A stretch of 49,521 nucleotides of DNA from Candidatus Aenigmatarchaeota archaeon (lineage in GTDB: Archaea; Aenigmatarchaeota; Aenigmatarchaeia; PWEA01): NCBI GenBank assembly GCA_003553905.1, contig PWEA01000003.1:1-49521 (forward strand). Direction: 5' to 3'. The notes below the pieces were generated by a model. The model had not been told where the DNA came from. It worked only from the letters and a program-made list of their open reading frames with translations, and made no database searches. Positions within the stretch are counted from its first letter, which is position 1; each line of letters begins with the position of its first letter. Both the position numbers and the translations under genes were made by a program. This document shows positions 25,247 to 45,082 of this stretch, one piece after another.

Positions 25247-25320
25247 AAATTTAAGCTTAAAATATCAGTTACAAAAAGTAAACTTTTTAATCTAGCACCC
25301 AAAGAAACTATAGTCAGAAG

Positions 25321-25471
25321 GCGGGGGTACCCAAGCGGCCGAAACCTCAAGGTTTCGTACCTTGCCATTTGCCTCTCTTCGAGAGTAGGCTGATAAGGTG
25401 GCTAAAGGGGCAGCGTTGAGGGCGCTGTGCACGTAGGTGCTTCGTGAGTTCGAATCTCACCCCCCGCACCA
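25321..25471 (+). tRNA. tRNA-Leu(GAG) with D-loop intron (about 25339-25401), CCA encoded
   Basis: Acceptor GCGGGGG/CCCCCGC; D-arm CCCAAGCGG...CTAAAGGGG interrupted; anticodon arm CAGCG-TTGAGGG-CGCTG; variable arm GCAC-GTAG-GTGC; T-arm GTGAG-TTCGAAT-CTCAC; ACCA. Confidence 0.9.
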
Positions 25472-25510
25472 TATTACTAAAACAGGAGACCGACCGGAAG
25501 AACTATTTCA

Positions 25511-26878
25511 TCAAAATTTGATATAAAGCCTATCGTCCTTTTTCTTCACAGTACCTATGATTTTACCCTTACCATCGATCCCTTCCTTCCTGGAAACTCC
25601 GAGCATATCATTGGTTTCATCGATAACTCTATAGTAATGATTCCCTTTACGCTCCCTTTTAAGTGGTTTTACCTTGACATCAAACATCACTTCTTTTTCC
25701 AAAAAGCGATCAGGATATTTAATTATATCATCGACTGTTGGGCTTTCTTCCATATCATTCTTCTTTTTCGCACGAAGTAAAACCAGGACAAAAATCAATA
25801 ACGCCAAGGGTATGGTAATCTTAAAAATCATTTCCAAATGACCGTCCGAAGAATAAAGATCGTCTTCTATAAACCCATCATCTGAATCTAAAATTAGACT
25901 GAAGCTTTCTGAGTATATAGAATCTTCTGTATTCAAAAAAAGTTCAATCTCATCGTCGAACTCTGACCTGTCCCGGGAAGATATATCAAGAAAAAACAAG
26001 GCCGTATCGCCGGGGCCTATTCTTCCTATGGTGTCCGGATCCGATCGATAAAAACTCTGATCAATAGCAGGCATAACTAAATAAATATCGTTCATGTTGC
26101 CTTCGCCTTCGTTCCTGACTTTAACATCCAAGGTTTCACTACCTCCGACCGGAATCTCCACCGTTTCGGGAAGTTTTATAATGGGCCTTGAGGGTGTATT
26201 TTCCAGTTCAATACCCGTCGAAACCTCGGACAAGACTTCACCAGCAAAAGAGGCTGAAAGCCTGACATCTTTGTTTCCTTCGGCATCACAAGCATCCAAC
26301 ACAAAAAAACCGTCCAGGGTCTCCGTAGAAGACGCTCTAACTTCGTCCTCAAAGGTATGAGAAAAGCCGTCACAAAAGATTTGAGCCTCCAACAGTACGC
26401 CGATATCATCTGTGCCTAGGTTTTTGAGGGAATATCTAAAAGGAATCCTTCCGTTCGGTTCTACTTTGTGGGAGACCGGCTCCATTTCTAAATCAAGAGG
26501 GCCGATCCCACCAGAAACGTCAAAAACGTTTCTGTGACTATCTACTATATCACCATCTTGGTCAGTGAACTCCAAAAATAACACATAACTACCGGCACTG
26601 TCTATCTGATGCCTGAAATAGAAAGTGCTGGTTTCTTCATGGAGATGAAAGGTTTCTTCTGCTTCGAGGATTCCCCTATGAAACAAAGAGACCTCGAAGG
26701 CATATGCATCATCTAAAGTCTCCAAACCATCCCCTTCCAGGGCTACTTCGACAGCACCACCGACTCTGTCTGGTTCATAAATTTCCGCTTCCGTCAAACC
26801 GGCTGCAGACACGCCAGAAGAAATGTAAAGTTGACACAAAACAAGAACAACGACAACAAGTAGGTTCTTTAAATCCAT
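25511..26878 (-). CDS. Secreted/membrane CARDB/NEW3-like protein with one C-terminal TM and a cytoplasmic OB-fold-like domain
   Basis: Signal peptide MDLKNLLVVVVLVLCQLYISSGVSA; extracellular Ig-like regions; TM IPLALLIFVLVLLRAKKK; C-tail EKEVMFDVKVKPLKRERKGNHYYRVIDETNDMLG..GKGKIIGTVKKKDDRLYIKF. Confidence 0.65.
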   Translation of the reverse strand: MDLKNLLVVVVLVLCQLYISSGVSAAGLTEAEIYEPDRVGGAVEVALEGDGLETLDDAYAFEVSLFHRGILEAEETFHLHEETSTFYFRHQIDSAGSYVLFLEFTDQDGDIVDSHRNVFDVSGGIGPLDLEMEPVSHKVEPNGRIPFRYSLKNLGTDDIGVLLEAQIFCDGFSHTFEDEVRASSTETLDGFFVLDACDAEGNKDVRLSASFAGEVLSEVSTGIELENTPSRPIIKLPETVEIPVGGSETLDVKVRNEGEGNMNDIYLVMPAIDQSFYRSDPDTIGRIGPGDTALFFLDISSRDRSEFDDEIELFLNTEDSIYSESFSLILDSDDGFIEDDLYSSDGHLEMIFKITIPLALLIFVLVLLRAKKKNDMEESPTVDDIIKYPDRFLEKEVMFDVKVKPLKRERKGNHYYRVIDETNDMLGVSRKEGIDGKGKIIGTVKKKDDRLYIKF

Positions 26879-26911
26879 ATCTATTAAATTGTATTTGGTG
26901 TAATATATTTC

Positions 26912-28549
26912 TTACCTGCCAAACCGGGCCTCGTAGGCATTTCTTTTTTTCTTTCTATAAAAGAGGAAAAATACAAACAGGGACAGTATCAGGATAGCAA
27001 CACCTAGGATTATACGAAGTGTCGGAAAAACAGGTTCCTCCGTAACATCAACTTCCTGTTCTCTCCTAAGGATTGAGCCATCGAGAAGAAACTCGTAGTC
27101 TAAAACGTATGTCCCGGGCTCGACCTCTTTCCTAATCCTGATGCTAAACTCCACCTCTTCGGTTTCGCCAGCTTTTACAACACCATCCTTTACTTCTGGG
27201 TTTATACTCCATCCGTCGGGAACACCCGGTCTTACTTCAAAGCCTATGTCTCTGTCCATCTTGTTCTTTATAAGGAAAGAGGTATAGCCTAATCCGTCTG
27301 CCTCTATATCCTTGACTTCTACTTCTTCTACCTCTATATCATCAAAAAGTCTGTCTCTTCTAAAAGATATGTCCCTGGTATACCATTGACTGTAGTCCAC
27401 ATCCACGGAGATAGGCTTCCCGAATCCGTAACCAAATCCTCTGCTATCGTCCGGTCCAATCTCAAAAAAACTCCACAGTACCTCTTTTTCTTCTTCATAG
27501 ATCGCCTTCGGTGAAGGATCAAAATCTATCTTGTCTATCTCAACAGGAATCTCTTCTGATATGCGTTCATTGAGTTCAACTATATCGTAGCTGTTGTCAG
27601 TAGGATTCCATAACTCCATCCCAACGTATGTTTCTCCTTGTTCCCCATCTACATGTACATTTCTCTTGATGATGGGTCTATGCTCAGGAACGGACTTTAT
27701 TCTAATGTACAAGGTTGTACTGTCCAAAACTTCATCCTGGGTGCCCAGAGCTTTGATTTCCATCTCCTTGGCTGTACTCTCTGTATCCATCGGAATATCC
27801 ATATCCAAAAAGAACCCTCTTACTTCACCCGATTCGATGTTTTCTCTTGTAAAATCGATACTATGCCATCCGTCCTGATCATCTACCTCAAGATCAACAG
27901 AAGCCGATGCAGTACCCGAGTTCTTGAAAGACATCGGTATAGAAACCTCTTCACCGGGTACCATCTCCTTAAACACAACTCTTTCAACGAACTCTATCTC
28001 TTCCGATGGATCGGGCGGTGCAGCACCCGATCCGGACGAACGTCGGTCTGGCTCGGTTTCCTCCTCCCCCTCAACAACAACCATATGAAGAACACTCTTA
28101 GTGCCCTTATCCAACCCTTCATCTTCACCCAAAGTCTCATTCTCCGCTCTATAAACAACGGTAGCATTTACCATATATTCCCCCGGAGATAGATCATCAC
28201 CTAAGACGTAAGAAGTTCCTTTGTAATCTCCTATATCGAGTGTATCATTGTAATCAAACTCTCCCTGGTATTCCAAGTTTCCGTTGTCGTTATCGATCAC
28301 ATCGACCGTTGTAGTTGAATTGACATAGAAAGGAGAAGATCCTACGTTACGGAAAGACGTATAAAGTTCTATCTTCGTTCCTTCGGGTACTGTACTCTCG
28401 CTTATCTGTGAATACACTTCGGTCACAACTACCTCGTTTATCTCAAAGGCAAGGGGTTTTGTTGTATTAGGACTTCCTGCAGACGTAAAACCTGATAATA
28501 ATAAAAACACAAATATTACGACAAAAAGCAATTTTTCAGTCCTCATCAC
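26912..28549 (-). CDS. NEW3/CARDB-like surface protein with C-terminal TM and positive tail
   Basis: Signal peptide; PGEEVSIPMSFKNSGTASASVDLEV..; VKAGETEEVEFSIRIRKEVEPGTYVLDYEF; TM ILGVAILILSLFVFFLFYRKKKR. Confidence 0.7.
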   Translation of the reverse strand: MMRTEKLLFVVIFVFLLLSGFTSAGSPNTTKPLAFEINEVVVTEVYSQISESTVPEGTKIELYTSFRNVGSSPFYVNSTTTVDVIDNDNGNLEYQGEFDYNDTLDIGDYKGTSYVLGDDLSPGEYMVNATVVYRAENETLGEDEGLDKGTKSVLHMVVVEGEEETEPDRRSSGSGAAPPDPSEEIEFVERVVFKEMVPGEEVSIPMSFKNSGTASASVDLEVDDQDGWHSIDFTRENIESGEVRGFFLDMDIPMDTESTAKEMEIKALGTQDEVLDSTTLYIRIKSVPEHRPIIKRNVHVDGEQGETYVGMELWNPTDNSYDIVELNERISEEIPVEIDKIDFDPSPKAIYEEEKEVLWSFFEIGPDDSRGFGYGFGKPISVDVDYSQWYTRDISFRRDRLFDDIEVEEVEVKDIEADGLGYTSFLIKNKMDRDIGFEVRPGVPDGWSINPEVKDGVVKAGETEEVEFSIRIRKEVEPGTYVLDYEFLLDGSILRREQEVDVTEEPVFPTLRIILGVAILILSLFVFFLFYRKKKRNAYEARFGR

Positions 28550-28562
28550 TTATCACTTAGTG

Positions 28563-29123
28563 CTACTCTTTTGTATACCAATACCCAAAGAGCACCAAAA
28601 ACAAGACAACTACCACCAGGAGCACATTTTCAGCCGGGTAAGCTGTATATTTTACTGTAAATGGCATGGTATTCGTAGCAGTGGTTTCCCCATAGTTCAC
28701 CACGTTCCTAGCAGCTCCAGAATATTCATCTTCCTCGGGAAAAAATTCAAGTCGGAAGGGTCCCTTGAAATCCGTGCAGACTATCCGACAGTATTCATCC
28801 TGTTCTTCTTCACAAAGCTGGGTTATACAGCTCCTAAGCTCTTCGCCTTGCTCATCCTGGCACTTCTGTCTGTAGCCCACCAGTTCCATGTAACTTGGTT
28901 CAACGGCTTCAACAAAGTCTTGGAGCTCTTCTGTGTAATCAACTGTATGTTCGGTGGTGCCATCTACACCGGACCATATCATCAGATGACACATGGTCTT
29001 TTCTTCACCGGCATTCAGTTCTATTCTTGATTCAGAAGCAGTTATTCCGGCAAAAGCCCCTTGACTGGAAAAAATAAAAAATAAAACAAAGGCTACTGTA
29101 CACACTGCGAAATCTCTCTTCAT
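28563..29123 (-). CDS. Secreted Cys-containing protein with C-terminal TM (possible Ig-fold accessory protein)
   Basis: Signal peptide, then GITASESRIELNAGEEKTMCHLMIW; C-terminal TM ENVLLVVVVLFLVLFGYWYTKE. Confidence 0.6.
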   Translation of the reverse strand: MKRDFAVCTVAFVLFFIFSSQGAFAGITASESRIELNAGEEKTMCHLMIWSGVDGTTEHTVDYTEELQDFVEAVEPSYMELVGYRQKCQDEQGEELRSCITQLCEEEQDEYCRIVCTDFKGPFRLEFFPEEDEYSGAARNVVNYGETTATNTMPFTVKYTAYPAENVLLVVVVLFLVLFGYWYTKE

Positions 29124-29142
29124 CTTCTATTCAGCCTCCATA

Positions 29143-29751
29143 TCAACAGGCACTTGAATCTTCGCTATCGAGGACTCCACAGAACTCGTACTGCACTTCG
29201 TAGGTTCCTGCCTCAACTGCATCTGCAACGTCTATGTAAAACATCTGCCTGCAGTGGTCTGCTTCCGTGATGTACGTTTCGCCGTCGTGGTACACAGAGT
29301 CACACCAGAGGCCAGCTTCATTACCTATCTCAGTCCAACCAGCATCATCGAACTCGCTTGTCTCCGACCATCCGCCTGATTCGTTGACGGTAACGTTGCT
29401 GTAAACTGTGAACCAGTCTTCATTGGTAGCCATCTGTTCGCTAAGCTTGTGGTACATGTCCACCGGCTGGTTTGTTGCATCGTCAACGTCTATCTGGTAA
29501 CCGTTTGACTCATCAGCATTCCCCAACGCTGCGTTACCTGTTGTTCCAGGATCCAGACTTCCGAAGTCAACTTCAGTTTCCAGGGCTCCGACGGGATGTA
29601 TAGCCATCCAGGCAGAGACCGTCGCTGTCAGAGGTGTTTCTCCAGTGTCCGCGTCCTGTCCTGAAGCAGAAACCAACGGCATCACCAGTCCCGCAATCAA
29701 AGTCACCATAACTATGGAGGTGATTGTAACCATTAATTTTTTCTTAGACAT
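29143..29751 (-). CDS. Secreted beta-rich protein; mature part resembles the C-terminal domain of the giant protein
   Basis: Start MSKKKLMVTITSIVMVTLIAGLVMPLVSASG; WMAIHPVGALETEVDFGSLDPGTT...AGTYEVQYEFCGVLDSEDSSAC*. Confidence 0.75.
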   Translation of the reverse strand: MSKKKLMVTITSIVMVTLIAGLVMPLVSASGQDADTGETPLTATVSAWMAIHPVGALETEVDFGSLDPGTTGNAALGNADESNGYQIDVDDATNQPVDMYHKLSEQMATNEDWFTVYSNVTVNESGGWSETSEFDDAGWTEIGNEAGLWCDSVYHDGETYITEADHCRQMFYIDVADAVEAGTYEVQYEFCGVLDSEDSSAC

Positions 29752-29818
29752 AACTATCAACTACTTAAAAAGTTTGAAGTCTTTTCCTTATAAAGATTTC
29801 CCTTGTTATCAAACGAAA

Positions 29819-32800
29819 TCAAGCTCCACACACGTCACTTCCTGAACCAGACTCTGTGGCACAGTAGTGATAAGTGGTATTGTAGTCGCCTGTGGGCTGT
29901 GCTTCAGGAACGTTCAGCCAGTACCTCAACCAACAGTCGTCTCCAGCAACAAGATCCGAGCAGACACCATCTCCGATCAGACTGTAATCCGTGACGTTGA
30001 ACTCTATAGCACCGTCCACAACCAGGTTCGAGCCGTCGGGATCCGTAACGTTTGCCTGGTGAACAACATGTTCGGCACTCATGAAGTCATCCCCCGAAGT
30101 CAACCCACCGCCATCGGTGAAATGGTACAGATCTACATCTACGTTGGTAGCAGGGTCTATCGTTATATTGTAACCCGTGTTCCCGCCCGGATTGTTGTCT
30201 CCTGCATCCACGTCCTGAGATCCCGGCGACATCTCACCGAAGTCAACACCGGCCTCGAGGGCATTCGAAGGAGCTATCTCAATCCAAATATAATCCGTAG
30301 TAAAGTTTAGAACATCCCCTTCGGAAACCGTGCCATCTGCCTCGGCCACGGCCCTGAACTCGTAGGTGGTTACACCCTGTAAATTTGAAAGGTTGTGCTG
30401 GAACTCCCCTATATCCGTCAAGGTTTCTACTTCGGTTGAATTCCACTCTGTGGCTCCTTCTTCCCTCCAATCAAAGTAAACATCGGCGTCATCATAACCT
30501 CCTAACTCAATCAACTCACCGTGAAGTGTCGCTGAATCATGTGATATATCAGTGGCTTCGTCCGTTTGCACATCAAGAGAAACTTCATTTATCCATGCCG
30601 TAATGCTTTCGACGGTCGGTGACTCTTCGGTTTCTGTTGATAAATCGTATTTGAACCAGAGATACTCCTCGGTAAGGTTGGCTCCTTCTTCGACAAATGG
30701 CTCGCCATCAGTAGCCTCGAACCAGTCTTCACTATCCATTTCTGGCATCTGATCTGTATCGGTGAAGGCAAGAGAAATGTTTACATCTGTACCGGCTGGC
30801 TCATAGGACTCCCATGTTACTTCACTCTCCGAAACATCCTCTATCCCTGTATCGTAGGAGGTAGATATCCTATACCCCTCGGAATGGGCAAAGTCGGCGG
30901 TCAGGTTCATGGCATCCACATAGGCCCATGCTTCATCACCATGAGGATGTGAATCTGACTGGAGATAAATATTGGTCCTGACTGCATCCACTTCCCCTGT
31001 GGGAGTATATGTAGCAGATTCCTCAACCCACCCTGTAGAGCCCGAATGAGACAAAAGAGTTTCCCATGTTCCACCATCTCGTATCTCAAATATTATATCG
31101 GACTGAAGTGGTTCATCTCGCTCATATTCTACTTTATATGCTGCGGAGAAATCTAAATCCCCATCCACGTCCTCGGGCATGAAACCATCGAAGGTCTGTG
31201 TCACGGTTGCTTCCTCCACATCTTCTTGTTCCGACCAAGATTCTATCGAACCACCTTCCTCAAACTGATCGTAGCTCACCCATCCGGTCGAACCACCGTT
31301 CTGTATCCTCTCTATCTCCCAAGGATCCTCGCTGTCGTAAAGATGAATATTGTCCAAAACCTCCTGAAAACCAAACATAAGCTGGAGTCTATTGTGACTA
31401 TCAACTTTAACTTCCTGAACTCCCTCAAAATCTTCCACATCTGCAAACCAGGAGCCTTCGGGTAGTTGATGTGGTCCAACCACGGACCAGTCTGCAGCGA
31501 AGAACTCCGACACCAGACCCTCATATACCTCATCCTCCGTCTCTACAACCGCCTTGAACTCGTGTCTGCTTGTTTCGTTCAGCCCTGTGACCTGCCTCAA
31601 GAACTCACCCGTCTCCGTTAACGTCTGCGGATCAGTGCTTGTCCACTCCTCTTCACCAACCACTCGATGCTTGAAGTAGGCTTCAACAGAATCATAGGCA
31701 AACAACCTCGTTAACTCTCCCTGCAACAATGCCGAGCTTGCAGATGTGTTGTCGGCTCCGATCGTTGAGACCTCTATAGGCTCTGTGTCCGATACAGTAA
31801 CATAACCATCATCACCTCTCTCCTGTGCATCACCACCAGAAGCCCCCACCCCAGCTCCAGCACTAATCAGCTTCACCAAGTATTCATCATTGTAGTTCAT
31901 ATCACCAACACCTGCAGGATGTCCGTCCCCATCACCATGTCCATCACCACCGTATCCACCATAACCACCGTTTGAACATTCAGCATCTTCTGGGTCTCCA
32001 TATTCGGTTCCGTTACCACCTTCACCACAACGACCACCACCACTACCTCCAGTCTCATAACCATCATCTGTATCTGCTCCTCCACCTCCTGCGTCGGCAC
32101 CAGCCAGCCAAACTTCTTTTTCAGTCCCTTCATCGGCTACAACCTCGGTCGATCCACCACCAGCGCCAGTGTATGTTCCGGCAGCATCACCACCGCGGTG
32201 ATAGCCCCATCCACCTGACCCTCCATATTCTCCTCCTTCCCCAACATATACACTCAGCTCATCGAAGTCTGTGACATCGAACTCACCCTCAAAGTAGGCT
32301 CCATCCCCTCCACGACCGCTCCAACCTCCTGCACCACCTGCACCGGCGAGCTCAATACTCACAACATACAAATCGCTAACATTCACCGTTCTGACTATGC
32401 CTGGTGTAACGAAATCATCACCGAAATGCGGGCCCTGCCACCCGAGTGCAGGGTATCCTGTATTGTTTTCATGGTCCCTAACAATCTCATGATCGCCGCT
32501 GTACCAGGTTTCATGCTCTTCACTTGACATATCCCACTCTTCGTACACCGCTGGGTCCTCGCTGTATTCCCACGTCATCTGCTCCGTGGTCCTGGGTTCA
32601 CCACCGTAGCTCGTGTCCTGTCCCGTGGTATTGGTGTTCCAGTATGAGTTTTCGACGATGGTTTCACCATCCCATGCAACTAAACCACCAGAGGTACCCT
32701 CTGCATCGACGTATCCCGTAGCATATGAATTTTTAACAAATGCCTCTGCCTCTTCTGATGACCCAACAATCAGACCACCAACCAAGGTGCCCCCCTGAAC

Positions 32801-35800
32801 AGAGGCAGTCGAATACGAGTCCACGATGTTCCCATCGTGAACTCCGGCAAGCCCAGCTACCTGATCACCGTGTCCTACTATGTTGCCAGCAGCATAGCTT
32901 CTTCTTATATCAGCGTAGTTTTCTCCCACCAGACCGGCAACGTTCAGCCCATCACCGGTGACATTCACCACCGAATAAGAATTGGTTATTTGACCATCAA
33001 GGTTTTGGCCAACTAATCCAGCAGCAACAGAAAAATCACCCGCGTCCTGACCTGCATATACTTCTCCGATAGAATAGCTGTTATGGACGTTTGCACCTGC
33101 TTGTATTTCTCCCACCAGACCGGCAACGATTACTCTCCCAGTTATATTTATGTCTTCCAGGCCTACAGCCTCGATACGACCACCTTCCGTAGCGGCAAAC
33201 AGACCAACATAGTCCGTATCAGGCCTATTTATCTCGAGGCCTGTAATCGTGTGACCTCGTCCATACAGTACTCCTGTGAACGGGCTGTCTTCACCGCCTA
33301 TAGGATCCCAGCCTTCCTCTGTATCCACAAGCTCACCATAGCCTTCCGATGTTTGGTTTATATCATTTATCACCTCATACTGGGCGGTGAGGTTGTTCCT
33401 GACGCTATCTAGGTGATACCAGTTCTCAATCAGGAACGGATCTTCACCGGTCCCAGAACCACCCGGTGTAAACGTCAATGTGTTTCCTCTGCCCTCTTCT
33501 CCGTTGGCCACCCCCACGGCCCTGAACTCGTGGGTTGTGTAAGCCTCTAGGCCGTCAACGGTTTCGTTGAACGGTCCGGCTTCATAGAGGGTCGTATTAG
33601 TGGTTTCGTTCCACTCCACAACTCCTTCTTGACGGTACTCGAAATACACATCTGCTTCCGTGAAATCCTCCCTTAGATCTGTTAGGTTTCCATGAAGCGT
33701 CGCCGAGGTAGTTCCTATGTCATCCACCGGCTTTGTATCCACGATAATGGCAACGTCCTTCCATTCTTGCCATCCCAGGGCAGGGTATCCAACATTACTC
33801 TGGTGGTCTTCCACGGTCGCATGTTCACCGCTAAGCCAGGTCGCTGTTCCATCCTGAGACATGTTCCAGGTGTAGTATGTCTCCTCTCCGTTCCTGGCCT
33901 CGTACTCCCACGTCATTTCCTCCGTGTTCCTCAGACCCGAGTTTTCGTCCTTAGTTCCCTCGTCTGTGCCTATAAAATCGGCAGTATCAACCGTATCCTC
34001 GTTGGCATAGCTATTGGAAACAACACCATCTCCGTCATTGTTTCCAAGCAAACCGCCGAAATAGTCTCCATCACCGACTACTGCACCGGTAGCGTAGGAG
34101 TTTTCCACTGTTCCATCGTTCCTCCCAGCTCCTCCGCCGGCATATTCGTCGTCGGCCTGAACACTGCTTGTCGAATAACAGTCAACCACCTCCCCTTCGA
34201 ACAGGTCCCCGGTTATACCTCCTGTAAATCTATGTTCCGTTATGACATCGTTTCCAAGGCTCGCAGAACGCAGAATTCTCGCCCCTCCTGTAACTCTGCC
34301 TGCAATTGCTCCAATGTAGTAGGCGTCTACATCTCCATCATATAGGTAGAAGTACGAACCCTCGACAGAAAGGTTTACAACCTCCCCACCATCCAGGTGT
34401 GCAAAAAGACCGTTCCAGTATCCACTCCACTCGGCATGGATTCCGCTTATCGAATGTCCTCCGCCATCAAAAGTGCCCGAAAACCTTTCTTCGTCGCCCC
34501 AGTCTATCCATTCCTGCTGGTCGTGATTCGAACCTATAGGGACAAATCCCTGTCCACCGGGTGCATCCTCGTTTGCTGTCTCACCGGCTACTTCGTCGTA
34601 ACCAGGACTCGTCTCGTTCAGATCGTTCTGAAGCTCGTAGTATGCTGTAAGGTTTTCACGGGTCTGGTTCAGGTGATACCAGTCCTCGACTAAAAACGGA
34701 TCTTCGGCGGTTCCTAAACCACCCGCAGTGAAGGACTGTATCTCGCCGACATCTTCATCACTTCCGTGAACCACCGCCCTGTACTCATACGTTTTATACG
34801 GTTTAAGCTCCTGGATGGTTTCACTGTACGTATCCGGCTCGGTAAGAATCTGTTCGTCTGTCTCACTCCAGCCAGTTTCACCCTTTTTCCTGTACCTGAA
34901 GAAGGCATGACCTTCATCGTAACCTCTGAGAGATCTGAGGTCCCCAGAAACAGTCGCATCGGTTATAGAAACATATTTAGGAGGGCCTGTCTCAACGTGC
35001 AGGTGCCGAAGTGTCCTAAAGGTGAGTACGTCGCCGTAAACAGTTTCTTCCTCTGTCTCTGCTGTTGTTCTGAACTCATAATCTGTATTTTCATATAAAC
35101 CCGAGACCTCATGATAAAAATCTCCTAGCTCTGTCATCGTTTTCTCGGAAGTATTTTCCCATGGAACTTCCTCTCCCATCTCCTCTCTGTACTGGAAGTA
35201 GACCTGGGCCTCCTCATAACCCACCATATTGACAAGTTCACCTCGGAGTACAGCTGATTCCGAAGTTATGTTGTCTGCCTCGTTGGTGGACAGGTTTAAT
35301 CCTTTTTCCTCGATTATCACCTCCTCGGCGTCTTCGTCGTCCTCACTCTGAACGGTAACCATGTCCGTTCCTCCTTCACCTACCTCGGTCTCCCAAACCA
35401 AATCCATAGTCTCGTTCTCATCAACACCAAGCGTCAAATTTTCGTGCGTATCCACAAGATTAGAATCGAAGTCCAGTAGCTCTATATCCTGCGTTCCTTC
35501 TAGCTCGCCGATGTTATAAATATCGACCGTTACTGTCAGATTTTCTCCTTCCATAACAGGAGAATCTGTACCAATGATAGTTACATCAAAATAAGGGATT
35601 TCGATATCCTCCTCAACCTCCAATACATAGCCTTCTATTAGGGGACCTCCGTTCTCGTCTTGTCTAAGCTCGTACTCCACACTATAACGACTACCCTCGG
35701 AAAGATCGAAGTCTTCTGTATCGAAGGCATTCGAACCTTCTTCCAGACCCTTCCAATCGCTCCACTGGTCTATTTCGCCGTCTCCTGTCGTATCCACACC

Positions 35801-36748
35801 CAACCGGACCTCGGCCTGGCTCCCGTTTGGCAGTTCAACAACATCCGTCCCAAAGCTTGTTATGAAGCTGTCCTCGGCCAGTCCGTCGTCCCAGCTATCG
35901 GAAGTCCAGACGCCCGCTTCGTATAGCTGCTCGTACTCATAAGACGCTTCCAGTGCTGTTACTTCGTCCACATTGATTCCAGGTCCGTCTTCGGTATAAA
36001 CATCCCATGATACGTCCATGGTATCGTTTCCGCTCACGTTAAGGGTTTCGCCGTCAAGTATCACATCGTCTTCTTCGTCTTCAATCAATTCTCTTTCCCA
36101 AACGGTGTCGCCGTCCACCTGTATTCTCACCCTCGGGTCCGTTCTATAGTCATCCAGCCGCCATTCAAACAGAAGGGTTATATCATCTATATCCGATACG
36201 TCTACTATTTCCTCGTGATATGTTTCCCAAACACCATCCTCTGAATCAAACAGCACATTGTCAGACCTTGCTACCTCTGTCGTCACTTCCCCGTCCAGAC
36301 CCAATCTTTCATTTTCTATCCTGGTCTGATTGTGTTCGGAGGTCCAGTCGTTCCACTCTGCCTCTGTATTAACCTGCCAGGTCGCCATATCGGCCTCGAG
36401 GAGACTGTTCCCAGATCCATCTTCTGTAGAACTGGTGTTTTCCCCTTCTACCTCACCTGCCAAAACCGTACTTCCGAGGAAAGAATCTGCGTAACCATGG
36501 AGCATATCCCCGGAAGATGAACTAAACGGGTTAGTGAAACCTACTTGGTAGACCAAAAAAACTCCCAAAAAAAGTGCTACGCAGAGGACCAACAAACGGA
36601 AAAAAAGATTCCCAGAACTCCTGGGACTGACGTCCCGTTCCTTGGAAAATTTCTCATTGAACTTCTGTCTGGGAGACGGTTCTCCGTCTAATACAAATCC
36701 GGGTTCACCAGAATCTCCTATATCCTTTTCCATATCGCTCCGTTTCAA
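29819..36748 (-). CDS. Giant (2309 aa) type II membrane-anchored surface protein: five FnIII-like repeats, two GLUG-like regions, Gly-rich domain, C-terminal domain shared with the 205-aa protein
   Basis: Single uninterrupted ORF; N-terminal TM FFRLLVLCVALFLGVFLVYQVGF; repeated SATLHGEL..DADVYFDWREEG..TEW..T..TLTDIGEFQ..L..L...TTYEFRAVA; GGLLGNNDGDGVVSNSYA/VAGLVGQNLDGQITNSYS; many N-x-S/T sequons. Confidence 0.9.
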   Translation of the reverse strand: MKRSDMEKDIGDSGEPGFVLDGEPSPRQKFNEKFSKERDVSPRSSGNLFFRLLVLCVALFLGVFLVYQVGFTNPFSSSSGDMLHGYADSFLGSTVLAGEVEGENTSSTEDGSGNSLLEADMATWQVNTEAEWNDWTSEHNQTRIENERLGLDGEVTTEVARSDNVLFDSEDGVWETYHEEIVDVSDIDDITLLFEWRLDDYRTDPRVRIQVDGDTVWERELIEDEEDDVILDGETLNVSGNDTMDVSWDVYTEDGPGINVDEVTALEASYEYEQLYEAGVWTSDSWDDGLAEDSFITSFGTDVVELPNGSQAEVRLGVDTTGDGEIDQWSDWKGLEEGSNAFDTEDFDLSEGSRYSVEYELRQDENGGPLIEGYVLEVEEDIEIPYFDVTIIGTDSPVMEGENLTVTVDIYNIGELEGTQDIELLDFDSNLVDTHENLTLGVDENETMDLVWETEVGEGGTDMVTVQSEDDEDAEEVIIEEKGLNLSTNEADNITSESAVLRGELVNMVGYEEAQVYFQYREEMGEEVPWENTSEKTMTELGDFYHEVSGLYENTDYEFRTTAETEEETVYGDVLTFRTLRHLHVETGPPKYVSITDATVSGDLRSLRGYDEGHAFFRYRKKGETGWSETDEQILTEPDTYSETIQELKPYKTYEYRAVVHGSDEDVGEIQSFTAGGLGTAEDPFLVEDWYHLNQTRENLTAYYELQNDLNETSPGYDEVAGETANEDAPGGQGFVPIGSNHDQQEWIDWGDEERFSGTFDGGGHSISGIHAEWSGYWNGLFAHLDGGEVVNLSVEGSYFYLYDGDVDAYYIGAIAGRVTGGARILRSASLGNDVITEHRFTGGITGDLFEGEVVDCYSTSSVQADDEYAGGGAGRNDGTVENSYATGAVVGDGDYFGGLLGNNDGDGVVSNSYANEDTVDTADFIGTDEGTKDENSGLRNTEEMTWEYEARNGEETYYTWNMSQDGTATWLSGEHATVEDHQSNVGYPALGWQEWKDVAIIVDTKPVDDIGTTSATLHGNLTDLREDFTEADVYFEYRQEGVVEWNETTNTTLYEAGPFNETVDGLEAYTTHEFRAVGVANGEEGRGNTLTFTPGGSGTGEDPFLIENWYHLDSVRNNLTAQYEVINDINQTSEGYGELVDTEEGWDPIGGEDSPFTGVLYGRGHTITGLEINRPDTDYVGLFAATEGGRIEAVGLEDINITGRVIVAGLVGEIQAGANVHNSYSIGEVYAGQDAGDFSVAAGLVGQNLDGQITNSYSVVNVTGDGLNVAGLVGENYADIRRSYAAGNIVGHGDQVAGLAGVHDGNIVDSYSTASVQGGTLVGGLIVGSSEEAEAFVKNSYATGYVDAEGTSGGLVAWDGETIVENSYWNTNTTGQDTSYGGEPRTTEQMTWEYSEDPAVYEEWDMSSEEHETWYSGDHEIVRDHENNTGYPALGWQGPHFGDDFVTPGIVRTVNVSDLYVVSIELAGAGGAGGWSGRGGDGAYFEGEFDVTDFDELSVYVGEGGEYGGSGGWGYHRGGDAAGTYTGAGGGSTEVVADEGTEKEVWLAGADAGGGGADTDDGYETGGSGGGRCGEGGNGTEYGDPEDAECSNGGYGGYGGDGHGDGDGHPAGVGDMNYNDEYLVKLISAGAGVGASGGDAQERGDDGYVTVSDTEPIEVSTIGADNTSASSALLQGELTRLFAYDSVEAYFKHRVVGEEEWTSTDPQTLTETGEFLRQVTGLNETSRHEFKAVVETEDEVYEGLVSEFFAADWSVVGPHQLPEGSWFADVEDFEGVQEVKVDSHNRLQLMFGFQEVLDNIHLYDSEDPWEIERIQNGGSTGWVSYDQFEEGGSIESWSEQEDVEEATVTQTFDGFMPEDVDGDLDFSAAYKVEYERDEPLQSDIIFEIRDGGTWETLLSHSGSTGWVEESATYTPTGEVDAVRTNIYLQSDSHPHGDEAWAYVDAMNLTADFAHSEGYRISTSYDTGIEDVSESEVTWESYEPAGTDVNISLAFTDTDQMPEMDSEDWFEATDGEPFVEEGANLTEEYLWFKYDLSTETEESPTVESITAWINEVSLDVQTDEATDISHDSATLHGELIELGGYDDADVYFDWREEGATEWNSTEVETLTDIGEFQHNLSNLQGVTTYEFRAVAEADGTVSEGDVLNFTTDYIWIEIAPSNALEAGVDFGEMSPGSQDVDAGDNNPGGNTGYNITIDPATNVDVDLYHFTDGGGLTSGDDFMSAEHVVHQANVTDPDGSNLVVDGAIEFNVTDYSLIGDGVCSDLVAGDDCWLRYWLNVPEAQPTGDYNTTYHYCATESGSGSDVCGA
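31780..32370 (-). other. Glycine-rich domain within the giant surface protein
   Basis: ELAGAGGAGGWSGRGGDGAYFEGEF...GEGGEYGGSGGWGYHRGG...GGYGGYGGDGHGDGDG; resembles ALK-type Gly_rich domains. Confidence 0.6.
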
Positions 36749-36819
36749 AAAAACTTCCCTCTCAGATATATTGTTATGGTATCATATTATCTGTCGATGG
36801 TTATAACCTTTAAGTCCGC

Positions 36820-36927
36820 GTCGACCGACATAAGCCGACCAGAACTACAAACAACAGATATTGGCTGAAGAGCAACACGGTTGGAAATTTTCGACCAGTG
36901 GTATAATATTTTTATATGTCGACCAAC
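36820..36927. promoter_or_regulatory. Candidate operator: repeated CGACC motifs upstream of and across the wHTH gene start
   Basis: CGACC at 36822, 36836, 36892 and 36920 (spacings 14, 56, 28), next to TATA-like TTTTTATA at 36908-36915. Confidence 0.35.
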
Positions 36928-36945
36928 AAACTTGAACCGGATATT

Positions 36946-37323
36946 ATGAAGAGCTCCAAGCAAGATGTTACTGTTAACAAAGATCTTCTTGAGATAAAGG
37001 ATAGGATAAGAAGGCCTGTGAGTAGGAAAGACAGGAGAAGTGAAATGGCTCAGTTAGAGTCGCAGATCAGTGATATCAGCGACAAGATAGACGACATAAG
37101 AGAAAATATATCAGGCGGAAGTAGCAGTAATGTCAAATTAAAAAAGAAGAAGGAGATAGTATGTCTTCTAAAAGAGGAAGGTAGGATCACCACCAGTGAG
37201 CTCTCGGACATAATAGACCTTTCCAGAACGCGCTGCTCAGAATATCTAAACGAAATGAAAAAAGAAGGAATCCTCAAGGGATCAAAAGAAGGAAGAAAAA
37301 AATACTACGAGCTTGACATATGA
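36946..37323 (+). CDS. Coiled-coil + winged-helix transcriptional regulator
   Basis: ORF 36916..37323. ATG 36946 fits a leaderless start about 30 bp after the TATA-like box. EIVCLLKEEGRITTSELSDIIDLSRTRCSEYLNEMKKEGILKGSKEGRKKYYEL. Confidence 0.75.
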   Translation: MKSSKQDVTVNKDLLEIKDRIRRPVSRKDRRSEMAQLESQISDISDKIDDIRENISGGSSSNVKLKKKKEIVCLLKEEGRITTSELSDIIDLSRTRCSEYLNEMKKEGILKGSKEGRKKYYELDI

Positions 37324-38111
37324 GTTTCAATAAAGACACGAACAATGGAAAGATAATATCTGTGGCTTCGGGTAAAGGGGGGACAGGAAAAACAGTAACT
37401 TCCCTAAATCTAGCCATGGAACTCCACAGTCTAGGGAAGGATGTTACAGTTGTAGATGCCGACCTAGAAGATCCAAATATAGGAATAAACCTCGGGCTTT
37501 ACTCCCCAAAGTCAACCATAAACAAATCGCTTGAGAATGATGAAAGCCTTATAGAGGCCATGCACATCCACGAAACGGGTATAAAACTTGTCCCGGCTTC
37601 GCTTTCGATAAACTACCTAAACACAAACTTCAGATCCTTAAAGGATAGATTCAAAGACCTAGGTGGCTATGTAATAATAGACTGTGGTCCGGGAATCAGC
37701 GAAAAGGTGATTTCCTGTATAGATCAGTCCGACGCTGTCGTTGCTGTGACTAATCCAATGAGATCCGCTGTTTCTGGGCTTGTGAGACTTACTGAAATAG
37801 TCAAAGACATGGAAAAGGACTTGGAAGGTATTGTTGTCAATAATCTCACATCTAAAGAGATAACATCGGAGGAGATAAGCAGTATAACCGGCTACAACGT
37901 TCTCGGAGAGATTCCATACGATATAAATGTCGACAGAAGTATAATAAACAAAGAGCCTCTGGTCAAATACAAGCCCTATTCAAAGGCGGCTATTGCATAC
38001 AAAAAAATAGCCCACGGACTTATAGATGAAGATTTCGAACCTGATCTTTCTCAGCACATAAAAAGATACACCGACCTGTTTCTATCGAAAATGGGACTAA
38101 ATAAACAATAG
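37320..38111 (+). CDS. MinD/ParA-family P-loop ATPase
   Basis: VASGKGGTGKTVTSLNLA deviant Walker A, VDADLEDPNIGINLGL, VIIDCGPGI. ATGA overlap with the wHTH gene. Confidence 0.92.
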   Translation: MSFNKDTNNGKIISVASGKGGTGKTVTSLNLAMELHSLGKDVTVVDADLEDPNIGINLGLYSPKSTINKSLENDESLIEAMHIHETGIKLVPASLSINYLNTNFRSLKDRFKDLGGYVIIDCGPGISEKVISCIDQSDAVVAVTNPMRSAVSGLVRLTEIVKDMEKDLEGIVVNNLTSKEITSEEISSITGYNVLGEIPYDINVDRSIINKEPLVKYKPYSKAAIAYKKIAHGLIDEDFEPDLSQHIKRYTDLFLSKMGLNKQ

Positions 38112-38141
38112 TCCCGGCTCGTCAACAAAAAAGATACAAAG

Positions 38142-38294
38142 ATGATAGGCAACAAAAAGAACAACAAGAAAAAAATAATCGAAAGGTTGGGTCTAGAATA
38201 CTCTGAGAAACATGAATGCTACGAGGACAGACATGCATACTATCATTTCGAAGGAGAAAACATCAAGAAGATAGAACCAAAACAGTTGAAATAA
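38142..38294 (+). CDS. Candidate 50-aa basic microprotein, not in the ORF track
   Basis: MIGNKKNNKKKIIERLGLEYSEKHECYEDRHAYYHFEGENIKKIEPKQLK*. Lies 30 nt after minD on the same strand. Confidence 0.4.
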   Translation: MIGNKKNNKKKIIERLGLEYSEKHECYEDRHAYYHFEGENIKKIEPKQLK

Positions 38295-38373
38295 ACATAG
38301 ACAACTATACACCTAGTGATTTTTGCTCGAGTCATACTTGAACAACAACCAGTATTAATCCTAAAGGATATAA

Positions 38374-38517
38374 TGGTCCCCCGACCGTGATTTGAACACG
38401 GGACCTATCGGTATCGGCAGAGATGCTAATCCAAAGCACCGTGTCATCATACCGCGAGGCAATCATCCAAGGCGCTCGTCTACAGCCGATCGCTCTGCCA
38501 GCCTGAGCTATCGGGGG
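38374..38517 (-). tRNA. tRNA-Tyr(GTA) with intron of about 67 nt (38413-38479), CCA encoded
   Basis: Acceptor CCCCCGA/TCGGGGG (archaeal C1-G72), D-stem GCTC/GAGC, anticodon stem ATCGG/CCGAT around CTGTAG|intron|A, variable AGGTC, T-arm CCGTG-TTCAAAT-CACGG, ACCA. Confidence 0.88.
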
Positions 38518-38608
38518 ACGTAGATACTCAGGAACGTTCAATTGTTTGGTACTGCCCTTTATTTATCTTTCGGTTATACTTTTATTTCTCAAAGAGGTAA
38601 AGATTTCC

Positions 38609-39109: not shown

Positions 39110-39595
39110 ATGAAAACATATCTAACAGTGTTTTTCAACTCCAATGGAGACAAACCAACGGAGGTCACAGAAGTCTTTGATGATCTAGGATTTAAGCCGA
39201 ACAGAGGAGTATATGACTACAGATATGACTGGGACGATGAAACCTCCTTTGAGCAGATAATGAGTATAGGTGATAAGATACAGGAGCTTCTCAAAGGCAA
39301 GAAGATACTGTTTCAGATGGAAACCAGCGAAGGGGATATGGAAGAAATTTCGGGAGATGAAATGAAGACCTACCTGAAGCTCATATTTAGGAGCGATGGA
39401 GGCGAAGCACCCTCTAAGGTAGACGAAAAGGTCGTTGATCTCATGGAGATAGGATTTGAACCAATAAAGGGTGAATATGATTATGTTTACAGGTGGCCGG
39501 AAAAAAGCAACATCCGAGGATTTCTAGAGGTCGCTGATAGAGTCTACAAAGCCCTCGAAGGTTGTGGTGTATTCTTTAAGTTAAAGACCGTATAA
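39110..39595 (+). CDS. Uncharacterised protein with two tandem copies of an approx. 75-aa domain, between archease and rtcB
   Basis: MKTYLTVFFNSNGDKPTEV..LGFKPNRGVYDYRYDW... repeated as MKTYLKLIFRSDGGEAPSKV..IGFEPIKGEYDYVYRW.... Confidence 0.75.
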   Translation: MKTYLTVFFNSNGDKPTEVTEVFDDLGFKPNRGVYDYRYDWDDETSFEQIMSIGDKIQELLKGKKILFQMETSEGDMEEISGDEMKTYLKLIFRSDGGEAPSKVDEKVVDLMEIGFEPIKGEYDYVYRWPEKSNIRGFLEVADRVYKALEGCGVFFKLKTV

Positions 39596-41140: not shown

Positions 41141-41824
41141 ATGATGTATATGGAAGTTGAAAGAGTCGAAACTGGGATACCGGGACTTGATGATCTACTA
41201 AACGGCGGTATACCTAAAAGGAACGTGGTTTTGGTTAGCGGTGAATCGGGTGCTGGAAAGACAACCTTCTGCAGCCAGTTTCTGTGGAAGGGACTTCAGG
41301 AAGGAGAAAACTGTATGTTCGTGACTTTCGAAGAATCTCCCTCACAGATAAAGGAAGAGGCCAGACTATTTGGATGGGATTTCGAAAAACACGGCGATAG
41401 TATAACTATAAGAGGAAAAGATCCATTTGATGAGGGGGACGAAGAACTTTTCTGGTTTAGGGATGAACTCGAGAAAAATGAAGTCGATAGACTTGCCTTG
41501 GATTCAACATCTATACTGTCTCTATACCACGAAAATCCATACGAAATAAGGAAGGCTATATATGAAATGATAAAAGTGATAAAGGAGACGGGCACCACAG
41601 CCATTGTAACTGCCGAGTCCCCGGCTGGTGAAGAAAAGCTGACAAGACACGATGTAGTTCAGTACGCTGTGGATGGAGTAATAGCCCTATATTTTGAGGG
41701 TATTGGAAAAAGGGGATATAGATCTGTTCAGGTTAGAAAAATGAGGAGAAGTGACATATCCACCGAGACGCTTTCTTTCGAAATAACAAGCAACGGACTT
41801 GATGTTGGTCAGTCGATAGTTTAG
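41141..41824 (+). CDS. KaiC-like RecA-superfamily ATPase (single domain)
   Basis: GIPGLDDLLNGGIPKRNVVLVSGESGAGKTTFCSQFL. Confidence 0.92.
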   Translation: MMYMEVERVETGIPGLDDLLNGGIPKRNVVLVSGESGAGKTTFCSQFLWKGLQEGENCMFVTFEESPSQIKEEARLFGWDFEKHGDSITIRGKDPFDEGDEELFWFRDELEKNEVDRLALDSTSILSLYHENPYEIRKAIYEMIKVIKETGTTAIVTAESPAGEEKLTRHDVVQYAVDGVIALYFEGIGKRGYRSVQVRKMRRSDISTETLSFEITSNGLDVGQSIV

Positions 41825-41826
41825 TT

Positions 41827-42540
41827 CTATTCGATAACCTTTAGACCATCACCGGTTATCTCGATAGGAAATATTTCTATGTCATGATTTGTTCTGCGCA
41901 TCTTTCTTATCTCCAGGGTCCTGTTATACCTTTCTGCGATCGGGGTGAACTCTAATTTTATCACAGAGTCGGCGAGATACTCAACTATGCCACTGCCGGT
42001 CAGCCCTTCAGAAGTCTCGGGGATAGTACCGACAAGTATGGCAGTAACGCCCATTGCTTTCAGTTTTCTTATCAAAGAAGAAATAACAACCCTCGCCATA
42101 TACTCTTCATTAACAAACATTTCTATAAGAGACACGGAGTCTATAACAACCCTCTGTGCATCAATCTCCTTTATATTTTCTTCAAGTCTTCCCATGAACT
42201 CGGATATATAACCACGAACCATCCTGTTGATGTTGTCAACATCCTTGGAAGGGAATATAGGTTCTATAGAATCTATTCTTAGCAAATTATTTTCTGAAAG
42301 GTAGTTTGAGAAATCCCAGTCAAACATCTCCTCTATATCCTTCACTATATCATCCTTCTCCTCTTCTGTGGTCACATAAACGCCAGCCTCACCGTTTTCG
42401 AGGCCATAACGTATAAATGAAGCCGAAAAAGCCGTCTTCCCTGTACCTGTTTTACCTGTTACAAGGTTCACAGAACCCTCAAAAAAACCGCCCTTCATCT
42501 TGTCATCAAGATTTATAACACCACTACCCAATCTTTTCAT
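41827..42540 (-). CDS. KaiC-like RecA-superfamily ATPase (second paralog)
   Basis: MKGGFFEGSVNLVTGKTGTGKTAFSASFIRYGLENGEAGVYVTTEE; RVVIDSVSLIEMF. Confidence 0.9.
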   Translation of the reverse strand: MKRLGSGVINLDDKMKGGFFEGSVNLVTGKTGTGKTAFSASFIRYGLENGEAGVYVTTEEEKDDIVKDIEEMFDWDFSNYLSENNLLRIDSIEPIFPSKDVDNINRMVRGYISEFMGRLEENIKEIDAQRVVIDSVSLIEMFVNEEYMARVVISSLIRKLKAMGVTAILVGTIPETSEGLTGSGIVEYLADSVIKLEFTPIAERYNRTLEIRKMRRTNHDIEIFPIEITGDGLKVIE

Positions 42541-42657: not shown

Positions 42658-43095
42658 ATGTTCGGAAAAAAGAAAGGACAGGCCGCGATGGAGTATCTTA
42701 TGACCTATGGCTGGGCTATTCTGGCTGTAGTGATCGTAGGCGGTGTCCTATACTACTATGGAGTTTTCGAACCTGACCTACCAGACCAAGGATGCCCAAA
42801 CGCACAGATTGCAGTTGATGGAAATGCGTGGGAATACAGCGGAGAAGAACTAAGATTTGTAGCAAGAAACAACGCAGGACAGGAGATCACACTAACTCGA
42901 GCAGAAGTAGAAGAAGAAAATGCATTCGCTGAGCTTGACCAAAGCCTTGGTATAGGTGAAAATTCTGATCAGATAACTATAACCGGTCTTCCGGAAGTAG
43001 AACCAGGAGATTCGGTGAGCGTTGATGTTGTTTTCACCTACGATGGAGCACTGGAGGACCAAACTTCTTCGTGCAACCTAATGGGAGAAGCATAA
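42658..43095 (+). CDS. Type IV pilin-like protein with class III signal peptide
   Basis: MFGKKKGQAAMEYLMTYGWAILAVVIVGGVLYYYGVF. Confidence 0.92.
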   Translation: MFGKKKGQAAMEYLMTYGWAILAVVIVGGVLYYYGVFEPDLPDQGCPNAQIAVDGNAWEYSGEELRFVARNNAGQEITLTRAEVEEENAFAELDQSLGIGENSDQITITGLPEVEPGDSVSVDVVFTYDGALEDQTSSCNLMGEA

Positions 43096-43119
43096 TCTGA
43101 ACACACAGGTTCGAAGTAG

Positions 43120-43165
43120 AAACCCACAGGGTTTGGTTTATCCAAACTTCCACCCTTTTCTTTAT
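43120..43165 (+). terminator. Overlapping hairpins plus T-rich tract after the pilin gene
   Basis: AAACCC-ACA-GGGTTT (43120-43134) and GTTTGG-TTTAT-CCAAAC (43131-43147), then CTTTTCTTTATTTTG. Confidence 0.5.
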
Positions 43166-43198
43166 TTTGTTCTACCGGCCACAGCTATACAAGTCTAT

Positions 43199-44194
43199 CT
43201 AGAGCCCAACAAATCCACCAAAGACCCTGGTCACTATTATATTAGCAACATAAAAAACAACCAATCCAGCGGTAACCATAAGAGGTGAATACCTCAGACC
43301 ACTTGTAGAATTACCTTCCTGTATCATTCCTATAATTATACCACCAAAGAATGTAGTCACAGATATAGCTCCGATGGAAAACAGTTTCAAAGTGGAAGGA
43401 CTTATATCGGGGCCTTCCATTGATACCATAGCTCCTCCCATCCCACCAAAACCATCGGCAGCCACCATATCGCCTACCCAGAGGCTTGACGTAACCTCTA
43501 TAAAATAAACAGAAAGTGCAAACAAAAGCGGCGCACCAAGAACAGAGGCAAAAACAATAAACATCGAGTACATGGTAACGTTTGCCTTGACCTTATCCAT
43601 CATGTTTTGAGCTGTTCTTATATCGCCGGCGGTCTCATCAAGAAGTGTAGCCATCTCACCACCAGATCTTATGCCTTCAGTCATAAGTTTAACCGCTCTG
43701 TCTAAAAGATCCGACTTTACGTGTTCGGTCATCTCTTTGAGAGATTTTTCGAGTGGTTCACCTCCCATTACTCTCGAGGAAACCCTATGTATCTCATCTT
43801 CTAGGGGTCCAAACTCCGGCCTTGCCGAAACCCATATAGCCCTCTCAACTGTCATCCCTGCCCTTATGTTTGCAGCCATGAGTTGTAATGCATCTGGAAG
43901 AACTGTGTCAACCTCGCTTCCTCGTCTTTCAGCGACCAAAACAAGATATACAAAAGGTACGGTATTGAAACCAACTATCGAAATTATGAAAGCTCCGGTA
44001 GAATACAAAACGTTCGATGTCAATGCAAAAACAATCAAAGAGATACAAACACCCGATAAAAATCCAAGGATTATGAGAAAACCAACAAGTGATTCTGCTG
44101 AAGTACGGCGGTAGCCACCATAATCCAAGAGCTCAGTAAATCTTTCCTTCCACGGCAACTTTCTTCCTATAATCTCATACTTCATATGAAACAC
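43199..44194 (-). CDS. TadC/FlaJ-type (T2SS F-domain) membrane protein
   Basis: MAANIRAGMTVERAIWVSARPEFGPLEDEIHRVSSRVMGGEPLEKSLKEM; multiple TMs. Confidence 0.9.
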   Translation of the reverse strand: MFHMKYEIIGRKLPWKERFTELLDYGGYRRTSAESLVGFLIILGFLSGVCISLIVFALTSNVLYSTGAFIISIVGFNTVPFVYLVLVAERRGSEVDTVLPDALQLMAANIRAGMTVERAIWVSARPEFGPLEDEIHRVSSRVMGGEPLEKSLKEMTEHVKSDLLDRAVKLMTEGIRSGGEMATLLDETAGDIRTAQNMMDKVKANVTMYSMFIVFASVLGAPLLFALSVYFIEVTSSLWVGDMVAADGFGGMGGAMVSMEGPDISPSTLKLFSIGAISVTTFFGGIIIGMIQEGNSTSGLRYSPLMVTAGLVVFYVANIIVTRVFGGFVGL

Positions 44195-45082
44195 CTAAAA
44201 ACTAACCGAAGGTCTTTTACTTTTTACGAAGCCCATAAAGAAAAACTGGAACATCGCTAGACCAAATATTATCAGTGGAAAAATCAAGCCTGGAATACTC
44301 ATCCCTGTAAGACTGGTAAGTATTATCAAAAATGTTATTCCTATTGAAGGTAGAATCACTGCAACTATCATATAAAACATTGTCCATGGATTCAACTCTT
44401 CTCCATATCTATTTATCTTGTTGATCTGCCTTTCAGCAAAGTTGTCTGTTATAGCTTCCAGTGCCTTTGAAACATCACTGCCCCCTTGAAGAGCGTTAAC
44501 AACTTGCCACAAAGCTCTTCTAAAATAAAGAGATGGGCTTCTTTTTGCTGATTCGTTTAGAACATCTTCCTGATCCCTGCCTGAGTTAACTTCTTCAACT
44601 ATTCTTCTAAACTCATCGCTCACACTTCCATAGCCGCTTGAAACTCCTACCATGGCATCGAAAAGGGGCACGCCTGCCCTGACCTCTATGAGAAGGTGTC
44701 TGAGAGCAAACAGAAGATTTTTTTCCAGATCTCTGACCTTTCTCCCTGCAACAAGGGCCGGATAAAAGTTAACATACCAGAAGGGGACGAAGAAGAATAC
44801 AACAGATAACAAAGGCGGAAGTAAACCTATAGATCCTGTTGACATCACAGAGATAAGTGTCACGATGCCTGCCATCAGAAACGAATAGAAAAGTCCAGTA
44901 AAAACCGCGAGGCTCACATAAAGAATAGGATCAATGTCCATATCTGCTTGATAAAGATTCTTTTTGAGATGCGGTACAGAAGGAGCTAATTTTTCACCTA
45001 CAAAACGTAGCTTTCTTGCTGCTTTGAGAGCTCTCTTTGTGGTAAAGGGAACGATTGGAATAGATTTTATTTCCTCATTCAC
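44195..45082 (-). CDS. TadB/FlaJ-type (T2SS F-domain) membrane protein
   Basis: ALRHLLIEVRAGVPLFDAMVGVSSGYGSVSDEFRRIVEEVNSGRDQEDVL. Confidence 0.9.
   Translation of the reverse strand: MNEEIKSIPIVPFTTKRALKAARKLRFVGEKLAPSVPHLKKNLYQADMDIDPILYVSLAVFTGLFYSFLMAGIVTLISVMSTGSIGLLPPLLSVVFFFVPFWYVNFYPALVAGRKVRDLEKNLLFALRHLLIEVRAGVPLFDAMVGVSSGYGSVSDEFRRIVEEVNSGRDQEDVLNESAKRSPSLYFRRALWQVVNALQGGSDVSKALEAITDNFAERQINKINRYGEELNPWTMFYMIVAVILPSIGITFLIILTSLTGMSIPGLIFPLIIFGLAMFQFFFMGFVKSKRPSVSF

Follow-up and report, generated by a model that had tools for sequence, protein, structure and literature searches.

The locus described here raises a specific question: what could be the function of a domain that ends a giant surface protein of a Candidatus Aenigmatarchaeota archaeon and is found again in the small secreted protein encoded next to it? 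The layout of the locus is given in Table 1; throughout, "the window" refers to the whole stretch of DNA analysed (49,521 nucleotides of contig PWEA01000003.1). In the giant, Pfam detected GLUG repeats (1.7e-9), together with glycine-rich (6e-4) and fn3 (8e-4) matches that both lie below their cut-offs. From its sequence, the hydrophobic segment of this protein could be either a signal anchor or a signal peptide with a long n-region—about 47 residues precede it (window 36539-36748), and the giants of loci L014 and L017 carry ordinary signal peptides. The small protein begins with a TTG codon, with an ATG present at codon 4.

Table 1. Coordinates of the cluster and its divergent flank in the window.
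Feature	Position	Strand	Basis and remarks
Giant surface protein, 2309 aa	29819..36748	(-)	ORF; from N- to C-terminus: hydrophobic segment near the N-terminus, fn3-like and GLUG repeats, glycine-rich region, predicted pilin-like domain at the C-terminus
Hydrophobic segment of the giant, residues ~48-70	36539..36607	(-)	Sequence, hydropathy
Giant's copy of the shared C-terminal domain	29828..30331	(-)	Domain HMM E 5.2e-49 (own genome)
Small secreted protein, 205 aa	29143..29760	(-)	ORF; signal peptide, ~15-residue N-terminal extension, shared domain
Small protein's match to the domain	29164..29655		Domain HMM E 2.2e-45 (own genome)
186-aa protein (P0003)	28563..29123	(-)	Partner position; signal peptide, 7 Cys, C-terminal membrane helix
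545-aa membrane protein (P0004)	26912..28549	(-)	"Third gene"; NEW3/Ig-like domain, C-terminal membrane helix
455-aa membrane protein	25511..26878	(-)	Run ends with this gene; resembles third-gene proteins to some extent
Winged-helix protein and MinD/ParA-type ATPase	36916..38111	(+)	Divergent flank; Pfam HTH_24 4.3e-11, ParA 6.2e-21

A preliminary description of this DNA had proposed that the 205-aa protein is homologous to the tail of the giant, and our analysis bears this out. Residues 50-205 of the small protein align with residues 2154-2307 of the giant at 48 identical positions out of 144, with a local BLOSUM62 score of 160; in 1000 comparisons of the shuffled small protein with the whole giant, the maximum was 81 (mean 54.8, sd 6.9). 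An HMM built from relatives, with both window sequences left out, retrieved the giant at E 1.3e-16 and the small protein at E 3.5e-14—while the remaining window ORFs (51 searched) gave no match at E<=10. On these alignments, the small protein is homologous to the giant's final ~165 aa, and these are the only two places found by a tblastn search of the 702-kb assembly of the same genome (E 1.7e-138 and 5.9e-11). The cysteine frame that had been described along with the homology was retained in part. Three of the four cysteines align within the pair (C170/C2272, C194/C2296 and C205/C2307), but the frame was rejected as a signature of the family, since the number and position of cysteines vary among relatives. 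Large or 5'-truncated relatives have cysteines near domain positions ~20 and ~62 in 23 of 47 cases, with many lacking any, and most small relatives have one cysteine near residue 110-130 and another at the C-terminus. As judged from these sequences, the frame is particular to the window pair.

To gain a broader view of the distribution of the domain, profile searches were extended to related genomes. A 13-sequence profile detected it in 43 of the 143 genomes of the class, and a 43-sequence profile in 49 of the 155 genomes, and 40 of the 103 genera, of the Aenigmatarchaeota phylum; by profile search it was absent from all five congeners. The small protein alone, used as a query against named genomes, gave no matches, and a sub-alignment query of the same genomes found 15 loci, all from Aenigmatarchaeota, Nanohalarchaeota or DPANN/archaeal MAGs. 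No copy was found in the viral contigs searched, and a sequence search of the PDB returned nothing useful. Neither the giant's tail nor its counterparts in 43 relatives matched any Pfam or NCBIfam family above cut-off—the best Pfam values among members were 0.0023 for Fimbrial and 0.02 for SCPU, both below cut-off—and we found no paper describing this gene cluster. The cluster, recurrent in about a third of the sampled Aenigmatarchaeota genomes, is apparently undescribed. Two domain genes are possibly decaying, each containing one in-frame stop codon (G065:C50:585-989 and G088:C17:4333-4731). Divergent clusters in L085 (2641-11306), L086 (5345-14007) and L087 (1665-10302) comprise several domain genes around a conserved protein of ~2205 aa and another protein of ~660 aa.

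Across all 62 genes examined, the domain ends 0-10 residues before the C-terminus, in proteins whose length ranges from ~200 to ~4000 aa. Such a strictly C-terminal position on unrelated cargo would suit a tag for export or attachment that a membrane enzyme cleaves off, as happens in type 9 secretion and with archaeosortases; however, a scan of the cluster genes revealed no peptidase or sortase-like match, and a small protein consisting of the domain only makes little sense as a mere tag, so that a cleaved sorting signal is a very improbable reading. The giant and the small protein could instead be parts of an S-layer, with the domain acting as a generic Ig-like module for lattice contacts. 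According to a review, S-layer proteins have been predicted in Aenigmatarchaeota (PMC12175726), and the giants do carry Ig/fn3-like and further extracellular repeats, but the patchy spread described above, down to none of the five congeners, is unlike that of an essential coat, and the strict C-terminal position comes with a dedicated partner gene. We therefore regard the S-layer reading as improbable.

The genomic setting of the cluster also differs between congeners. The distance from the HhH-GPD gene to archease is 13 kb in the window (25247-38545) and 1.4 kb in the congener G004 (L149 912-2319), whereas in the congener G003 different large surface-type genes (2955 aa) adjoin HhH-GPD (L147 5498-19500). 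This comparison of the flanks indicates that the cluster is a variable block, and that its site is home to other surface-type genes as well. Further along the window, positions 39110-39595 encode a 161-aa protein with two similar halves (MKTYLTVFFNSNGDK... and MKTYLKLIFRSDGGE...) and no Pfam match, which adjoins archease in G004 too, and two convergent KaiC-type ATPases lie at 41141-42540. Type IV pilus-like genes are found at 42658-46649 (a pilin-like protein, two TadC-like membrane proteins and a T2SSE ATPase), possibly representing a second surface-attachment system.

The dedicated partner became evident from the conserved gene order. On the same strand, the gene after the domain gene usually codes for a protein of 170-320 aa with a signal at the N-terminus and a membrane helix at the C-terminus, and the gene after that often for one of 400-800 aa with a comparable topology. 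A partner HMM matched the next gene in 38 of 55 cases, a count that is partly circular in that most such partners went into building the profile. The topology count is free of this circularity: an N-terminal signal plus a C-terminal helix, called by hydropathy, was found in 33 of the 55 next genes, compared with 3 of the 135 remaining ORFs of about that size at the same loci. Likewise, in L094-L097, whose partners had been left out of the profile, the next gene matched it at E 5e-37 to 1e-42. Weak matches to the NEW3 Ig-like family occurred in 10 of 24 type-A partners (best 6.1e-5). In the window, the position and topology of P0003 match those of the partners of relatives; its sequence similarity to them is not significant, although it was the top ORF both times (E 0.22 with the jackknifed profile and 0.021 with the partner-A HMM), and P0003 may accordingly be taken as the window's partner by virtue of position and topology. 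P0004 can be assigned with more assurance to the third-gene family (third-gene HMM from relatives E 1.4e-14), its NEW3/Ig-like domain matching Pfam NPCBM_assoc at 1.1e-7, and the 455-aa protein matched the third gene of L054 at 6.8e-7 by phmmer and the third-gene HMM at 0.0041.

Small proteins were found directly downstream of a large domain protein in 7 of 10 cases (the window, L015, L016, L017, L019, L052 and L070), the divergent L085-L087 being left out; the preliminary description had named, as a case against its proposal, that homologs of the small protein never adjoin such a large one, and this is not what is seen. The others occur in L075 and in L069, where the small protein and its partner have been duplicated as a unit, giving two tandem copies. 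Most of the 59 domains in our phylogenetic tree belong to systems without a small protein, and the tree separates a clade of giants nearly all lacking one (L016 being an exception) from a clade combining giants and small proteins. The window pair falls in the latter, its two members grouping together (99/97) with the small protein on a long branch. For L052 and L070, which belong to different families, the two giants form a pair in the tree and the small proteins likewise fall together, which places the origin of the two-component arrangement before that split. Since most relatives lack the small protein, the basic role of the domain is probably the docking of giants rather than the building of fibres.

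To explore the domain from a structural perspective, AlphaFold2 was applied to the window's small protein, which yielded a poor model (pLDDT 54); compared with the PDB, this low-confidence model had self-complemented FimA structures as its seven best matches (E 5.5e-4 to 0.02). Because of its quality, a second model was made from a relative with closer homologues, and this one was confident (pLDDT 88.4, pTM 0.78). Its two best Foldseek matches were to the Csu pilus, an archaic chaperone-usher system (7zl4; E 4.1e-3 and 6.3e-3, prob 1.00, TM 0.42-0.46), and most of the top 27 were chaperone-usher pilins, with TM values of ~0.3-0.5 and no E-value of the confident model below 1e-3. A sequence pattern had pointed to SCPU pilins before the fold search—paired cysteines, FG near the start and G-x-Y-x-x-T at the end. 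Structure prediction thus supports a pilin-like fold, with chaperone-usher pilins as the nearest solved folds. The preliminary description had likened the arrangement in its logic to TasA/AbpA-type fibres, with no claim of homology. AbpA and TasA also form beta-rich donor-strand fibres, one of them archaeal, and the Pyrobaculum bundling pilus chain 7ueg did appear among the matches, but only as a weak one at rank 34 (prob 0.47, TM 0.30-0.34), with chaperone-usher pilins ranking far higher. That the domain is a TasA/AbpA-type fibre protein is, consequently, highly unlikely.

Profile comparisons gave a signal for the pilin superfamily that varies with the alignment used, as far as these sequences go. 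The window's clade matched the combined SCPU and Fimbrial profile over 130 columns (prob 83, P 8.9e-6), a value reached by 0 of 60 block-permuted controls, and all members matched SCPU over 122 columns (prob 31), again with 0 of 60 such controls as high. Against SCPU alone, the window's clade reached a prob of 9.5, equalled by 7 of 60 permuted controls, and clade A vs SCPU and Fimbrial gave 1.1. No SCPU match above cut-off was found in 143 genomes, and matches below it fell on the domain in one of five cases. Taken together with the predicted fold, common descent of the domain with chaperone-usher pilins is suggested.

The resemblance to chaperone-usher systems (Csu/SCPU; FimA, FimH, CsuA/B) extends beyond the predicted fold to an adhesin with a C-terminal pilin domain accompanied by a small pilin-only protein, and to an adjoining gene for an Ig-like helper. 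The two cysteines found in half of the large relatives are also placed roughly like what we take to be the disulfide of the pilin A-B strands. The differences are equally clear: the host is a monoderm archaeon, the helper is anchored in the membrane through a C-terminal helix, sequence similarity stays below the family cut-offs (PF00419/PF05229) and the giants reach ~4000 aa. No usher (PF00577) was found above cut-off in any of the 143 genomes, and the partner profile aligned with chaperone-usher chaperones (PapD-like) at a prob of 7-9. The proposal of an assembling subunit plus an adhesin is plausible in view of the nearest solved folds, but fits less well with the many relatives that have no small protein.

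WxL/csc clusters of Firmicutes with their WxLIP proteins (DUF916-DUF3324) offer a second comparison. The logic of these clusters, to which the locus had been likened, applies here and extends further than anticipated, as a membrane-anchored Ig-like partner is encoded next. As in Firmicutes, adjacent genes encode a small domain-only protein, a large one that ends in the domain and an Ig-like protein with a signal and a C-terminal helix. Here, in contrast, the domain carries no WxL motif, and peptidoglycan, which is not known from archaea, is not expected. Membership of the WxL family was rejected: the WxL domain PF13731 was found in 0 of 143 genomes at E<=10, and against profiles of nine WxL domains from food and environmental bacteria the domain reached hhalign probabilities of 0.8-6.4 (below 7%), with common columns mainly confined to ~19 near the end—in agreement with the earlier disclaimer of homology. 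Consensus sequences served as search probes for WxL and SCPU, and only the records retrieved with them were taken further. The partners had no DUF916 match in Pfam. As a separate observation, an alignment of the WxLIP (DUF916-DUF3324) profile with that of chaperone-usher chaperones spans 182-188 columns (hhalign prob 54-71; L107 and L110-L114 vs L115-L122), a hint that the two kinds of system may share a relationship.

A static membrane clamp, in which the Ig-like membrane protein holds the giant's C-terminal domain without any fibre, as has been proposed for WxLIP and WxL, with the small protein as a further occupant or a spacer, draws on the same comparison. The gene content indeed matches that of a WxL cluster—small domain-only protein, large protein with the C-terminal domain and Ig-like protein with a C-terminal helix (PMC10599100)—the small protein is missing in most relatives, and the partner profile aligns with the N-terminal Ig strand of WxLIP (hhalign prob 79.7), over 29 columns only. 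The fold search, however, yields pilus subunits, and the N-terminal extension that follows the signal peptide of the small protein is free, a feature to be expected of a strand donor. We consider this clamp a serious contender, though a somewhat unlikely one.

Two further systems invite comparison. The archaeal threads of Sulfolobales (Saci_0406/0405) are strand-complemented, pilin-like fibres in archaea, apparently assembled by a mechanism other than chaperone-usher, and share with the present system an archaeal host, Sec export, a structure like that of type 1 pilins and two pilin-like genes lying together (PMC9715654). They are crenarchaeal, with no giant and no described Ig/C-helix partner, and are likened here by description; they were absent from the 50 best fold matches of the relative's model. 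The NCBIfam family NF058581, the pilin domain of the CPR Pam pilus, comes from another lineage of ultra-small cells, a bacterial one, and we found no paper on this pilus. Its sub-cutoff matches fall on the domain in three of eight cases, two being near full-length and colinear, with scores on the domain of 6-15 bits against a cut-off of 55 (15.4 for the window's giant, 12.5 for G131). The 2205-aa protein of G073, from the divergent clusters, likewise has a sub-cutoff Pam pilin match (E 3.2e-4).

The pilin-like predicted fold, together with the membrane-anchored partners that usually adjoin it, suggests that the domain probably fastens or builds adhesive structures at the surface. The explanation that we favour, with about an even chance of being right, is that a C-terminal docking domain, a pilin-like beta-sandwich of Ig type, completed by a strand of the small protein or of the membrane partner, fixes giant adhesins on the cell surface. 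By analogy, its working logic would be best read as that of WxL clusters, in the face of WxL sequence similarity that is not significant. Under this explanation, Sec would export the giant and the small protein, and in giant-only systems the adjacent membrane-anchored Ig-like partner would supply the beta-strand completing the domain. In two-component systems such as that of the window, the small protein might also supply a strand by donor-strand exchange, its N-terminal extension filling the domain of the giant or that of the following small subunit, so that it might polymerise as a fibre subunit or serve as an adaptor, while the 186- and 545-aa membrane proteins would act as chaperone or anchor. 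The giant would be an adhesin projecting from the cell surface, comparable to FimH on the type 1 pilus or the large WxL protein on its clamp. A bolder version, which we hold to be unlikely but worth stating, places these proteins in an usher-free branch of the chaperone-usher pilin superfamily in single-membrane archaea, where a membrane-anchored Ig-like chaperone or base donates a strand to the pilin domain of the giants and, in one of the clades, also to a small subunit that polymerises.

According to the prevailing view, DPANN archaea mostly live attached to host cells, by means of which little has been described, and the docking domain marks giant proteins that belong to a surface cluster. 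If the pilin-like fold is true, the display of adhesins through strand complementation would not depend on having an outer membrane and an usher, and the likeness between chaperone-usher systems, WxL clusters and the Aenigmatarchaeota cluster would become testable. Should the usher-free branch prove real, it would, together with WxL/WxLIP, constitute one donor-strand superfamily spanning Gram-negative bacteria, Firmicutes and DPANN archaea.
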